Positions 45,944-52,837 of a stretch of 64,000 nt of DNA are shown one piece after another. The notes below the pieces were generated by a model that did no database searches, was not told the origin of the DNA, and was given only the letters and a program-made list of their open reading frames with translations. Made by a program: the position numbers and the translations under genes. Location: positions 1 through 64,000 of the forward strand of contig JAJTXQ010000040.1 of assembly GCA_021462855.1 (NCBI GenBank), in the 5' to 3' direction. This DNA is from Dehalococcoidia bacterium. Its GTDB lineage: Bacteria > Chloroflexota > Dehalococcoidia > DSTF01 > JACRBR01. The stretch's first letter is position 1; the number at the start of each line of letters is the position of its first letter.

Positions 45944-48900
45944 TCACTCGTAGCGCAACGCCTCGGCGATCGGGATGCTCGACGCCTGGCGCGACGGGAT
46001 GATCGTCATGATCAGCGACGCGAGGAACGCGAAGCCGCCGACCGCGACGATCTGCACCCACGGAATGTAGAAGCTGTCGACGCCGCCCGGCACGAAGTCG
46101 TCGGTGTTGACGAGCTGGTACGCCAGCAGCAACGCCAGCGCGATGCCGCTGACGATGCCGAGCAGCGCCGTGAACGACGACTCCATGATGAAGCTGATCG
46201 CCACCGCCCGGCGCGAGTAGCCGATCGCCCGCAGCATGCCGATCTGCTGCCGCCGCTCCACGACCGTGCGGAACGCGATCACTCCGACCGCGGCGATGCC
46301 GACGAACAGGCCGATGCCCATGAATCCCTGGATCAGGTACAGGAACGCCTGGCTCTGCGCGCGGAAGTCATCGATCAATTGGCGGAGCGAGTCGGCCTGC
46401 ACGCCCTGCGCGAGCAGCGTGCGCTCGATGCCGCGCGCGGCGGTGTTGGCGTCCGCGCCTTCGTTGAGCTTCACGAAGTGCACCGTCGACTCCGGCCGCT
46501 CGAACGTGCTCGTGAACGCCTCCGGCGAGATGAACAGGCCGGTGTAGAGCCCGCTCGCGCGCGTCGTCAGCACGCCGATGAGCGTGATGTCGCGCGTGCG
46601 CCCGGTCGCGGAGTCGTGGATGGTGAGTGTGACCGGGTCGAACGTCTTGTCCGTAGGCTCGATTCCGTCCACCGAGAACGCGCCCGGATCGTTGAACCCG
46701 TCGCCGGGGATCGCGAACGCGTCGACCACAGCCAGGCCGGGGTCCGCAGCGATCGCCTCCCAGACGGCCGCGTCGGAGTCGTACCCGGTAGCGCGCGCCT
46801 GGAACTTCAGTCCGTTGCCCTCGATGAACCCGGGCGTCAGGCCGTAGATCGGCCACGCCTTGAAGTCCTGCTCGCCGCCAGCGTTCGAGACGCGCGCCGA
46901 GATGCCGTTGGCGACGCTCAGGGAGTCGACACGCGCGATCACACCCGGGTCGAACGGCGTCGCCGTGGCGGATGGCGGCGGCGCATCGGCGAGCGCGGCG
47001 CGCAGGTCGGCGATCGGGTTGGCAGGGTTCTCCGTGACGACGACGTCATAGCCGCCCTGCGCGTCCTCGTCATCGAACAGCTTGTCGAAGTTCGAGTTCA
47101 TCGTCGACATCATGACCAGCGCGAACATGACGAGCGAGATCATCGCGATCGTCATGCCGGTGCGGAACTTGTTCGCGAGCGGGTACGCGACCGCGGTGCG
47201 GATCGATGGCACCAGGCCCGCCGAAACGGCGCCGAGACGCGTGAACAGGCCGAGCATCAGGTCGGCGTTGTAGACGAGCACGAACGTCGCCGAGAGCACC
47301 ATGGAGATGCCGCTCAGGAAGAACAGCTCGATGCCACCATCGAGGTCGGGCGGGATGTGGGCGCCGGCGGCGAGCAACCAGTACACGAGGAGGGCGATGC
47401 CCATCGTCGTGAAGACGGGGCGGTTCGGCGCGCCCAGCTGCACGAGCGTCAGCGCCAGGCCGAGGAGCGCCAGCGTGATGCCGCCGGCGTACGGCGCCGC
47501 CTGCTCCCAGTGCAGCCCCAGCACGATCAGCAACGCTCCCAGCACCATCGCCATCGTGCCGGCCTGGAAGATGTAGTTGAGTCCGAGCAGCAGCGTGACG
47601 AACGCGCTCACCGCGAACGTGCCGCCGATGACGCCGAGCAGCACCGCCAGCACGCCGCCCGCGGCCGACGTGCCGTAGATGGCGTCCGCCGCCATGAAGC
47701 ACACGACCACCAGCGCAGCCTGCACCGGCGCGAGGATCAGGATCCCCGCGCCGCCCAGCCACTGCCGCCACGTCGAGGGCTTGACGATGAGCCACTTCGC
47801 GATGCGCAGCATGCCGCGCAGGCCGTGTCCATCGTTCGGTCGCTCGTGGGCCGCCGGCGGATCCGGCACATCGCGGATCGCGCTGACGATGTTCAGCGCG
47901 CCGATCCGCCACGACGAGAATGTCACGGTGAGGAACGTCAGCACGACGCCGACGGAGTACGACACGACCAGGCTGCGCGGCGTCACGTGGAACCGGATCG
48001 ACAGGTCGAACTCGGCGAACATGCGCGCCATGATGTCGATCATCACCATCGACACGGCGATGCCGAGCAGGCAGCCGACCGCCGCCGCGCCGACGTTGTA
48101 GACCATGCCCTCGGACATGAACATCTGCACCAGGTGGTTGCGTTTCGTGCCGACGGCGCGGATCATCCCCATCTCGGTCTTCCGCTCGGCGGCGAGCATG
48201 ACGAAGATGAGGAAGATCAGCATCATGCCGGCGGCGATCGAGAACAGCCCGAGCACCACGAAGAACGTGACCATGAAACTCGATGTTTCGCTCGCCGAGT
48301 CGACGACATCCTTCTTCGAAGGGGCCGCCTGCCAGGCCGTGCCGAACATCTTTTCGTTCAGCCGGTCGGTGATCTCGTCCGAACGCTCCATGCCCGCGCG
48401 GACGCCGCCGTCGTTGCTGACGACGATCATGTCGACCTCGCCCTCGCGCCCGAACAGCGCCTGGGCGCGGTCGAGCGGCATGGCCAGGCCGTTGGCCTGG
48501 CCAAAGAGGGCGCCGGTGAGCACGCGATCCTTGACGATCGCCTTCGCCGTGAACTCGTGCGGCTCGCCGCCGACGTACAGCGTGAGGACGTCGCCGGGCG
48601 CCACGTCGAGCTCCTCGGCGGCTGCTTCGTTGACGTAGATCTCACGCTCGGCCAGCGCGTCGAGCGTCACGCGCTCGCCGGCGGTCGTCTCGATGTCCGA
48701 CTCGAAGCCGGCCATCTGCGACGTGTCGAGGCCCATGAGGATGGCAAGCGGCTCCGTCTGCCCCTTCGCCGCGTTGCTGACGGGCACCGGCGCGCGCAGC
48801 AGCGGCAACGCGCCATCGACGCCGTCCATCTCGCGGAATGACTCCGTGAACTGCGCCGCCTGGCCCTCGGGGATCGGCAGCGGCGAGACCAAGCCGGCGC

Positions 48901-49225
48901 CGACGAACGGGTCGTTGTTCTCGCTGTCGGTCGCCGCCTGCACGACCTCGTCGATGCTGTGCAGCCGGTCGTACGCCTGGTTCGTGATGCTGTACTCGAC
49001 GGTGTCGCCGATGCTGAACGCCGTCGCGATGATCAGCGTGCTGAGCATCAGCCCGATGATAATCAGCACCGTCTGCGCGCGCCGGCGCGGGATGTTGCGC
49101 ACGCCCACCATGAACATGATGCGGTTTCGCACGAGCACGTAGCCAACGGTCGCGAGCGCCACCGCGAGCACGCACAGCAGCGCGATCATGATGTAGGTCA
49201 TCGACAGGCCGAAGAGCTCGCTCAC
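45944..49225 (-). CDS. Large FtsX/MacB-type ABC permease (second of two)
   Basis: A GTG at 49225 starts a 1093-residue protein, overlapping the ATPase stop by GTGA. The layout mirrors that at 42539: extracytoplasmic domain about 75-310, FtsX helices about 330-480, central hydrophobic region, second extracytoplasmic domain about 690-930 and a C-terminal FtsX helix block with [21 protein letters not shown] and [19 protein letters not shown]. The last part is nearly identical in pattern to the first permease, so the two are paralogues that could form a heterodimer. Confidence 0.9.
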
Positions 49226-49971
49226 CTGGTCGCCCCGTTGAGCAGCTCCTCGCGGACGATCTGGCCGTCCTTCATGTGCACGATGCGGTGGCAGCGCGCG
49301 GCGACCTCGGGCGCGTGCGTGACGATGACGAACGTCTGCGCGTGCCGCTGATTGAGGCCCACGATCAGGTCCATGATCGCGCTCGCGTTCTCGGTGTCGA
49401 GGTCGCCCGTCGGCTCGTCGCCCCAGACGATCGCCGGGCGGTTGACGAGCGCGCGGGCGATCGTGACGCGCTGGCGCTGGCCGCCGGAGAGCTGCGACGG
49501 CTTGTGCTTGGCCCAGTCCCTCAGCGACACCAGGTCGAGCGCCGATTCCGCCTTCTCGCGCGCCTCGCGCACCTTCGTGCCGGAGACGAGCAGCGGCAGT
49601 TCGACGTTCTCGACCGCGCTCAGCACCGGGAGCAGGTTGTAGAACTGGAACACGAAGCCCATCTGACGCGCGCGGAACTCCGTGCGCTTGTTGTCGGACA
49701 TCTTGTTGATGTCCTCGCCGTTGATCAGGATGAGGCCGCCGTCGATGGAGTCGAGGCCGCTGAGACAGTTGAGCAGCGTCGTCTTGCCGCAGCCCGACGG
49801 GCCCATGATCGCGACCATCTCACCGCGCTTGACGCTGATGCTGACGCCGCGCAGCGCGTTCACGACGACGTCGTCCGTGCGGTACGTCTTCACCACGTCG
49901 CGCGCGTCGATGATGAGGTCGACGGCCGGCGCCTGGGCGGCCACGGCGGCCGGTTCGGTCGAAAGGGACAT
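49222..49971 (-). CDS. ABC transporter ATPase, MacB/LolD type
   Basis: The 249-residue ATPase has Walker [10 protein letters not shown], the Q-loop in [21 protein letters not shown], the signature LSGGQRQRV, Walker [14 protein letters not shown] and the switch His in [10 protein letters not shown]. The FQFYNLLP and DEPTGDLD segments are typical for the lipoprotein/macrolide export subgroup. It serves the two permeases downstream. An inverted repeat lies 42 bases before the start. Confidence 0.95.
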
Positions 49972-50160: not shown

Positions 50161-50203
50161 CCGAGCGGGGGTTGCGGGGGTTGCGGGGGGGGGGGGGTAC
50201 GAT
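50161..50203 (+). promoter_or_regulatory. Promoter region with G13 tract and possible G-quadruplex
   Basis: Repeated GGGGGTTGC units lead into a run of 13 G (50185-50197) followed by TACGAT, a possible -10. TTGCGG at 50172-50177 could be the -35, with a 20-base spacer. A change in G number would alter this spacing. Confidence 0.5.
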
Positions 50204-50229
50204 AGCCGTCTCACTACGAAGGAGTACGG

Positions 50230-51483
50230 ATGATGAGATGGAACTCGGTCCTCCTTCCTGTATGCCTGATCGCCGGGATCGGGCTTGCGGCGGCGCTGAT
50301 TGGCACGACCGGCGGAGGCCGCGCGGGCACGGCGGCCGAGGCGCACGTCGTGGTGGACGGGCCGGTGGAATGCGGCTCGCACGTCACGATCGACGTGTTC
50401 CTCGACGCGATCGACGCGCGCACGTCGGACCTCGGCCAGCCCGTCGGGCTCGGCGCCTATAACCTGGCGCTGCACTACCCGAACGATGCCCTGCGCCCGG
50501 CGGACCGCGACGCGACGCGTGTCGTCGTGCCCGACGGCGCGCCCACGGTCGATGGGGCAACGGGCCGGCAGTGGATCCCCGGAGGGATGTACAGCGACCT
50601 CTTCACCGGCGAGCTGTGGTCCGGCGCGTTCAGCTACGTCGGCTCGCCGAACCCCTCGAAGTCGATGGGCGCGATCGAGGTCGTCGATGGTGTGGATGCG
50701 CGTGAGCGCGGCGGCGTCGACGTGGCGAAGGTCGCGCCGCTGCACCTCGGCACGTTCGATCTGGTCACCGGGAAACCCGGCACGCACGTCGCGGAACTGA
50801 CGCTCACCGTCGTCGACTCGTCGATGGCGTCGCTCGAGTACGCGAACGACAAGATCGCAATCCCGATCGAAGTGAAGGACGGGCCCTGCGCGACGTTCGC
50901 AGCGATCGAACCGCCGCCGACGCACCCGCCCGCGCCGCCGCCATTCGAAGGATGGGACAAGATCCCCACGCCCGACCCGTACCCGGACGACATCACTCCG
51001 GCCGCGGGAGAACTCGCCGATCTGGGAGATGCATGCGCGACGGGCCGGCAGTATCACATTGCTACCCGCGGGATGGATCTCTGCTTGCCAGCAGGGTGGA
51101 GCGTTACGCACGATCCGAGCCCGGGGCAAATCGAAACGGCGCAGCGCAATTCACCAAACGCCGTGGCAGGCGCGCTGTTCGAGCTACGCAATGCGGAGGG
51201 CACAACCATCGCCGGCGTGTCCGTCACGATCCTGGGCGGAGAGCCGTTCTCCCTCACGAAATGTGAGATCCCCGTCACGGCTCCCGACCTGGGTTCGGTC
51301 TGCATCTACGCGCGCGGTCCGGGCGGGCACCTGATGCCGGTCTACTGGCGGTTGATTGGCGTCACGACTGAGGCAGGCCAGTGGGCCACCATCGCCATTT
51401 ACGACATCGGAAGCCAGGCGGAGCAGGAGGCGTTACAGCGCGAAGCTCTTGAGATTGTCAAGTCGATGAAGGGCGGATGGTGA
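50230..51483 (+). CDS. Secreted protein with cohesin-like domain
   Basis: The 417-residue protein starts at ATG 50230 (AAGGAG five bases before) and has a signal peptide (about 1-30). Residues 38-215 look like a cohesin-type beta sandwich: VECGSHVTIDVFLDAI, then GLGAYNLALHYPNDALRP and TLTVVDSS. A Pro-rich linker (about 225-255) leads to a second domain (about 265-417) with four Cys and KIVKSMKGGW-like end. Cohesins bind dockerins; the next gene has a dockerin-like tail. The domain call is from strand pattern only. Confidence 0.65.
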   Translation: MMRWNSVLLPVCLIAGIGLAAALIGTTGGGRAGTAAEAHVVVDGPVECGSHVTIDVFLDAIDARTSDLGQPVGLGAYNLALHYPNDALRPADRDATRVVVPDGAPTVDGATGRQWIPGGMYSDLFTGELWSGAFSYVGSPNPSKSMGAIEVVDGVDARERGGVDVAKVAPLHLGTFDLVTGKPGTHVAELTLTVVDSSMASLEYANDKIAIPIEVKDGPCATFAAIEPPPTHPPAPPPFEGWDKIPTPDPYPDDITPAAGELADLGDACATGRQYHIATRGMDLCLPAGWSVTHDPSPGQIETAQRNSPNAVAGALFELRNAEGTTIAGVSVTILGGEPFSLTKCEIPVTAPDLGSVCIYARGPGGHLMPVYWRLIGVTTEAGQWATIAIYDIGSQAEQEALQREALEIVKSMKGGW

Positions 51484-51484
51484 G

Positions 51485-52837
51485 GTGAGGCGCGTTGGCA
51501 AGATATCTATGTTGGTCATCGCGGCCGCGATCGTCGGGATGGCACTGATCCCTACACAAGACACCGCAGCACACACGGTCGGCTTTCCTACGGTCCGCTA
51601 CAACCCGTTCCGCCTACCATGGGGCGCGGAATCATCTTGGGCGGTGTGGCCCGGGAATCCGCCCGACCCCGACCCACCGGATCCCAACAACACACATTTC
51701 GGTTGGCAGGTCGACTTCTCTTCAGTTCCCGGCGGGGGGTCCAACTACGGCGAGCCCGTGAAGTCCATCGGAGGTGGAACGGTAACCTACTACAACGATG
51801 GCGCCGACGTTAACTATGGGCTTCACGCGATCGTTGTTCATGCGGGTCAATGGTGGTCGAGATACGCGCACCTCTGCGCAACGGGCGCGCCGGCTGGCGC
51901 GGTCGTCCAGGGAACCTGGCTTGGGGACGTTGGCAACACTGGGGAAGTGGATCCGGCGCCAGCACAGCGTTGTCAATCAATCGATGGAGCGCACCTGCAC
52001 TTCGAGGTGGGTGATCCGTCCGGAACCTTGGACGCGACGCTTACGGGTGTGTCAATCACCCATCTCGGCATCGAAGAGCGATTTACTCCACACAAGTCCG
52101 ACAACGCTGGTGCCGGTTACACGGATCCGCGGACGCGCGACGAGGCGTTCCACGCACGCGCGGTGATGCCCGATGCGAGCCCGGCATCGACACGCAAAGG
52201 GAAATTCACGACGTGCGGCGCGGCTGAGACGCACTACTTGTACACATGCCCGTACTACGCGTTCACGGTGCGGGGTCAGGACTTCGTTGGGCCGCGGTTG
52301 ACGCAAGGCGGGCTGCAGGGGCTGCACGAAACGTTCTCGCTCGTTCAGACGACTGGCCCAACCGTGGTCAAGGTCAAGGGCGCAATCCAGAAGGCGTATC
52401 AGTCGCGGGTGGTCGCCAACGGCGCGCGGGTGTCGTCCTACCTCGGCCGCCCGTTGGGCGAGGAGGGGCTCCTGAGCGGGCACCCGTTCCAGAACTTCGA
52501 GAACGGCACGATCATCGTGCTCGAGGAGATCTCCTGGTCACCGCCGCGCAGGCTTGTCCGCGTGATCGCGGGTGACGGAAGCACGCTGCTGGAGCGCACG
52601 CTGACAAACTACGCTGGCGCCGGCGATTGCGCGAGCGTCAACGGGGATCCGCATGTGAACATCATCGACGTGCAGCAGGTTGCCGTACATGCCGCGAATG
52701 ACGGCGAGCCCGGGTACGACCGACTGTACGACTTCTGGGGCGGCAACGGCACGGCCGGGTACTCGGACGGCGCAATCAACGTCCTCGATCTCTTTGCTCT
52801 CAGCGCGCGGTACGGGCTATGCCCGGCAGAACTGTGA
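51485..52837 (+). CDS. Secreted M23-type peptidase with dockerin-like C-terminus
   Basis: A GTG one base after the previous stop starts 450 residues. A signal peptide covers about 1-28. The M23 (LytM) domain has its metal ligands His71, Asp77 and the HLH pair His170/His172, with the further His129, so it looks catalytically intact for peptidoglycan peptide bonds. A central region (about 190-370) has LGRPLGEE and FENGTI segments like LGFP repeats. The last 65 residues carry two dockerin-like segments (VNIIDVQQVAVH and INVLDLFALSARYG). Confidence 0.75.
   Translation: MRRVGKISMLVIAAAIVGMALIPTQDTAAHTVGFPTVRYNPFRLPWGAESSWAVWPGNPPDPDPPDPNNTHFGWQVDFSSVPGGGSNYGEPVKSIGGGTVTYYNDGADVNYGLHAIVVHAGQWWSRYAHLCATGAPAGAVVQGTWLGDVGNTGEVDPAPAQRCQSIDGAHLHFEVGDPSGTLDATLTGVSITHLGIEERFTPHKSDNAGAGYTDPRTRDEAFHARAVMPDASPASTRKGKFTTCGAAETHYLYTCPYYAFTVRGQDFVGPRLTQGGLQGLHETFSLVQTTGPTVVKVKGAIQKAYQSRVVANGARVSSYLGRPLGEEGLLSGHPFQNFENGTIIVLEEISWSPPRRLVRVIAGDGSTLLERTLTNYAGAGDCASVNGDPHVNIIDVQQVAVHAANDGEPGYDRLYDFWGGNGTAGYSDGAINVLDLFALSARYGLCPAEL

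Follow-up and report, generated by a model that had tools for sequence, protein, structure and literature searches.

The assembly from which the sequence derives comprises 3.0 Mb in 76 contigs, and the stretch of DNA analysed here (the window, 64 kb) lies on contig C35. Two genes on the forward strand, P0001 (50230-51483, ATG start) and P0002 (51485-52837, GTG start), encode proteins of 417 and 450 amino acids, respectively. They are separated by a single base (51484) between the TGA stop codon of P0001 and the GTG start codon of P0002, which agrees with the spacing given in the initial annotation. An AAGGAG Shine-Dalgarno site for P0001 was read directly from the sequence at 50219-50224 (forward strand). 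The GC content at third codon positions ranges from 0.73 to 0.92 in P0001 and from 0.63 to 0.92 in P0002; in all bins of the two genes but one, it exceeds the values at first and second positions. As third-position GC is raised in the way expected for a high-GC genome, P0001, for which no homologue was found, and P0002 are both considered real genes, and they are probably co-translated.

Upstream of the pair, genes for an ABC transporter (ATPase and FtsX-like permease, named by inspection) are oriented divergently at 45944-49971 on the reverse strand. Downstream, from 52913, a series of acyl-CoA-dehydrogenase-like genes, also named by inspection, follows in convergent orientation. The gene order around P0001 and P0002 is not conserved in relatives, where the ABC transporter genes adjoin other genes. 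A run of 13 G residues (50185-50197, forward strand), the end of a G5-TTGC-G5-TTGC-G13 sequence, lies 32 bases 5' of the P0001 start and is the sole G/C run of at least 7 bases in the window. The only second G/C run of at least 9 bases in the 234 kb examined is at the extreme end of contig C2 (L066 8337-8357), beside a cut-off dockerin. The 13-G tract may be a natural G-quadruplex-like or slippage-prone sequence, or a sequencing artefact or mis-join.

P0002 is predicted to be exported, with a putative signal peptide at residues ~1-29 (51485-51571), and carries an M23 peptidase domain that extends from H71 (51695-52009). Residues 87-175 matched Pfam Peptidase_M23 (PF01551) with 41.4 bits (cut-off 28.7; E 1.7e-10), and an alignment with eight M23 proteins placed all of the zinc ligands and catalytic residues (H71, D77, H129, H170 and H172), although the spacing between H and D is 2 residues longer in P0002 than in the aligned proteins. 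The M23 domain described in the initial annotation is therefore intact. M23 enzymes cut the peptide bridges in peptidoglycan, and the same activity is predicted for P0002. The peptidase domain is followed by an LGFP-like region (residues ~243-354; 52211-52546) with a possible role in cell-wall binding, in which residues 320-354 gave a Pfam LGFP match (E 0.019) that is below the cut-off. The closest M23 relative of P0002 is encoded by genome G007 (locus L044; Pfam M23 E 9.6e-15) and is 32% identical over residues 87-344. Like P0002, the G007 protein combines an M23 domain with an LGFP-like region, but its C-terminus does not include a dockerin. In the M23 part of P0002 (51485-52160), third-position GC is 0.63-0.71, below that of most of P0001 and of the dockerin end (0.73-0.92), and the peptidase part may have been acquired recently.

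The C-terminal module of P0002 (residues ~381-447; 52625-52825) lies between Cys382 and Cys446. It was matched by Pfam Dockerin_1 (PF00404) at 12.9 bits (E 0.13), below the cut-off of 22.9. However, profiles constructed from other dockerins of the same genome, with P0002 left out, recovered the module with 46 bits and, for a profile of nine dockerins, with an E-value of 4.9e-13 in a genome-wide search. The own-genome dockerin profile also recovered solved cellulosomal dockerins (4fl4, 2b59 and 1ohz) at 4e-9. Since the own-genome profile finds both P0002 and these solved structures, the module is assigned as a dockerin by descent, and the C-terminus of P0002 is well supported as a genuine yet divergent dockerin. 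The two dockerin-like segments noted in the initial annotation thus do have dockerin homology, but they represent the two halves of a single module.

Alignment placed the first putative calcium loop of this dockerin, SVNGDPHVNIID, at residues 384-395 (52634-52669) and the second, DFWGGNGTAGYSDGAINVLD, at residues 416-435 (52730-52789), the latter with an 8-residue insertion. The first loop reads S-V-N-G-D ... D, as compared with the D-x-N/D-x-D ... D pattern of dockerin calcium loops, with Ser replacing the first calcium ligand, as is also the case in most of the aligned own-genome dockerins. The closest relative of the P0002 dockerin is encoded at the end of contig C2; it is 52% identical and has an insertion as well. 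A Cys residue just before the first repeat and another just after the second (52628-52825 in the window) are likewise found in most C-terminal dockerins of the genome (L007-L014, L054, L074, L141 and L148), and are absent from most dockerins of class genomes outside the order. This flanking Cys pair could possibly form a disulphide clasp.

Bona fide cohesins are encoded elsewhere in the genome, with six Pfam matches on four proteins, and a profile of these own-genome cohesins recovered solved scaffoldin cohesins at 9e-14. Three of the proteins (on contigs C60, C21 and C30) have one cohesin each, together with a hydrophobic anchor at the C-terminus, and the fourth (C11) has at least four cohesins joined by Thr/Pro-rich linkers and runs off the contig end. 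The start of contig C2 (L065) falls within a protein that combines a cohesin-like domain with a dockerin and a long linker rich in Thr, and the C11 (L064) and C2 proteins might be the two ends of one scaffoldin. Dockerins were found by Pfam in eight matches, and by the profile that excludes P0002 in 19 matches on ~16 dockerin-like proteins. The carriers include glucose/sorbosone dehydrogenase (GSDH) and GDSL lipase proteins, both detected by Pfam, a metallophosphoesterase, detected by the own-genome profile, and TSP3-repeat proteins. On contig C21, the anchored cohesin protein adjoins dockerin proteins. A second dockerin-like type, GDLNLDC...FFGSLLY...DIDIKDLQ.VFGRDGSTC, was observed directly after GLGAYEF/GLGSF cohesins in the same protein (L074 2791-4464, L150 1660-3555, L151, L086 and L098).

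Across 393 genomes of the class, cohesins were detected in 75, dockerins in 79, and both in 60. This corresponds to an odds ratio of 63 (Fisher p 2e-39), or 46 (p 2e-29) when the order of the source genome is left out, the p-values being indicative only, as related genomes are not independent. Within the order, 16 of 18 genomes have both. Some relatives among G002, G001 and the genomes of family f4 have 50 to 133 first-look dockerin candidates each, which suggests systems far larger than that of the source genome.

P0001 is an apparently exported protein with two domains. A hydrophobic segment at residues ~8-26 (50251-50307) is a putative signal peptide or membrane anchor, and is followed by a beta-rich, cohesin-like domain (residues ~38-220; 50341-50889) that includes GLGAYNLALHY and GATGR motifs, a Pro-rich linker (residues ~226-258; 50905-51003), and a C-terminal domain (residues ~259-417; 51004-51480) with an LPAGW motif that is possibly PsbP/Mog1-like. 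The tblastn matches between the C-terminal domain and LPAGW repeats in L121 were non-significant. P0001 had no Pfam match even at E-values up to 10, and none in NCBIfam or among PDB sequences. No homologue was detected at E 1e-3 in the 393 class genomes, and the few matches in a 400-genome sample of the phylum (E 0.0004-0.01) fell mainly on the Pro-rich linker. The family, order, class and phylum samples yielded no homologue for a deeper alignment. Matches in L119 and L125 were rejected as chance because the reading frames there belong to a histidine kinase and an ABC permease, and a tblastn match in L080 falls in a repeat region outside the cohesin of that locus.

The initial annotation assigned a cohesin-type pattern to P0001. 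Given the lack of any match to Pfam, NCBIfam or PDB sequences and a marginal profile signal, this assignment was not upheld, and the N-terminal domain can be described as cohesin-like on a suggestive basis only. Like the own-genome members of the Cohesin family (PF00963), which have the pattern LGA(Y/F)...GSTGR, P0001 includes LGAY...GATGR in colinear positions with the same spacing. Unlike them, it does not match the family significantly, its loops contain large insertions, and its C-terminal domain is of another kind. The combined LGAY/TGR pattern occurs 13 times in the loci examined, in cohesin contexts, and not at all in 887,138 reversed residues, though it was composed with the P0001 motifs in view and so does not constitute an independent test. 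In glocal alignment, P0001 scored z 3.2 with the own-genome cohesin profile, a score reached by 8 of 2000 shuffles, as compared with z 6-25 for true members. With a combined cohesin set it scored z 3.9, a value reached by 2 of 1000 shuffles and by none of 168 control pieces. Other cohesin profiles gave z 0.6-1.6, among them z 1.5 with a broad class-wide profile and z 1.6 with a profile of the GLGAYEF-type cohesins. As several profiles were tried, the best of these values overstates the significance. Using hhalign, P0001 aligned with the own-genome cohesins over 43 columns (E 0.0037, probability 9%). A relationship with the longer type of cohesin-like N-terminal domain encoded on contigs C33 and C2 was also considered, but P0001 did not match a profile of those domains.

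Structure prediction, which the initial annotation had proposed as a check, was uninformative on the fold of either protein end. AF2 models made without an alignment had a pLDDT of 43 for the cohesin-like domain of P0001 and 37 for the P0002 dockerin, the latter with three helices, and both were too poor for a fold call. Foldseek searches with these low-confidence models returned no significant match for either, and no dockerin match for P0002. The type II cohesin 5g5d_A had the top TM-score among the 50 PDB entries listed for the low-confidence P0001 model.

At the level of sequence, the M23 domain with all of its ligands, the homology of the C-terminal module to dockerins, and the cohesins in the same genome are shown, and export of P0002, its wall-cutting activity, its calcium-dependent docking and its co-expression with P0001 are predicted. 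The interpretation that we favour, and hold to be somewhat more probable than its opposite, is that P0002 is a secreted wall hydrolase carried as cargo by a cohesin-dockerin display system of the non-cellulosomal kind. Following export, P0002 would cut peptide bridges in peptidoglycan, and its C-terminal dockerin would attach the enzyme to a cohesin on the outer side of the membrane. It would then be one of ~16 proteins, cargo or scaffold, that bear a dockerin tag in the display system of this genome. A cohesin-dockerin complex that includes P0002 is plausible because the genome encodes bona fide cohesins, some of them anchored, and because cohesins and dockerins co-occur across the class. That the P0001-P0002 pair is not kept in relatives counts against display, as does the divergence of the P0002 dockerin, to which its structure model lends no support. 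The cell-surface peptidase complex raised in the initial annotation is accordingly retained in part: homology at the sequence level supports an M23 peptidase with a dockerin, whereas weak profile similarity and adjacency suggest P0001 as a possible cohesin partner.

With respect to the partner of P0002, adjacency favours P0001 and the quality of the sequence matches favours the other cohesins. If the N-terminal domain of P0001, encoded one base upstream, is a very divergent cohesin, P0001 could be a dedicated partner, and the co-translated pair would form a peptidase complex at the cell surface. The one-base spacing, the colinear LGAY and TGR motifs common to P0001 and the own-genome cohesins, the glocal z of 3.9, the short hhalign alignment and the top TM-score of 5g5d_A among the 50 entries listed for the low-confidence model would fit such a pair, but the absence of a Pfam match at E 10, the hhalign probability of 9%, the values of z 1.5 and 1.6 obtained with other profiles, and the z 6-25 of true own-genome members make it rather unlikely. 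The anchored cohesins of C60, C21 and C30 or the multi-cohesin protein of C11 would be at least as likely as P0001 to bind P0002. Docking on one of these, an anchored single cohesin or a scaffoldin, with P0001 an unrelated exported beta-sandwich protein that shares the transcript, has a chance not far short of even. It is consistent with the presence of bona fide cohesins elsewhere in the genome and with the orphan status of P0001, whose C-terminal domain is unrelated, though the weak cohesin-like signal of P0001 and the one-base spacing would then have to be coincidence. The broader proposal that P0001 founds a divergent cohesin family, and forms with the Cys-flanked dockerin a dedicated two-gene wall-hydrolase docking pair at the surface of an uncultured Chloroflexota-type cell, within a lineage-wide non-cellulosomal system, is unlikely.

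The ability of the P0002 dockerin to bind calcium and cohesin could also have been lost, given its Pfam score below the cut-off, the Ser at the first ligand and the insertion in the second loop. The module would then serve as a calcium- or disulphide-stabilised cap or a sorting tag, and the peptidase would be soluble or held on the wall by the LGFP-like region. Such a role would be compatible with a first loop that lacks the initial Asp, with the interrupted second loop, with the Cys382 and Cys446 pair around the module, a feature shared by most of the genome's C-terminal dockerins, and with the weak LGFP-like match. However, the module is kept on ~16 proteins with differing cargo, and dockerins and cohesins co-occur across the class, neither of which is predicted for a mere cap; this explanation is therefore quite improbable, and display of P0002 through its dockerin is preferred.

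Dockerins are the plugs by which cellulose degraders assemble enzyme complexes, and cohesins are the matching sockets. Like the Type I dockerins (PF00404) of cellulosomal enzymes from Clostridium and relatives, the P0002 module consists of two halves, predicted to be duplicated F-hands, and forms the C-terminal end of an enzyme that is probably exported. However, the cargo is an M23 peptidase rather than a glycoside hydrolase, and the module differs from the Type I dockerins in the missing first Asp of loop 1, the 8-residue insertion in loop 2 and the flanking Cys pair. Cohesin-dockerin systems of the non-cellulosomal kind are known from both bacteria and archaea. One article (PMC9012536), citing Peer et al. 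2009, describes ANME archaea with proteins that have a dockerin and up to 5 cohesins, and with cargo such as solute-binding proteins. The source genome resembles these systems in its exported non-cellulolytic carriers and in its poly-cohesin, scaffoldin-like and membrane-anchored cohesin proteins, but it belongs to a bacterial class, probably Dehalococcoidia, and its cargo includes M23, GSDH, GDSL lipase and metallophosphoesterase proteins. Within the same phylum, one study reports that cohesins and dockerins are absent from five Anaerolineae genomes and UNI-1, which belong to another class (PMC4877987). No report of a cohesin-dockerin system in Dehalococcoidia or SAR202 was found in the part of the open literature that was covered. 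The kind of system is therefore already known, and the features of greater interest are its spread across the lineage and the Cys pair that flanks its dockerins.

If this interpretation is correct, cohesin-dockerin plugging would be used to place a wall-cutting enzyme, a lipase, a phosphoesterase and a dehydrogenase on the cell surface, and not for the digestion of cellulose. Nearly the whole order of this uncultured class, as judged by the 18 genomes searched, has both halves of the system. The set of cohesins and dockerins constitutes a testable binding matrix, and would provide a view of how the outer surface is organised in these little-known cells.
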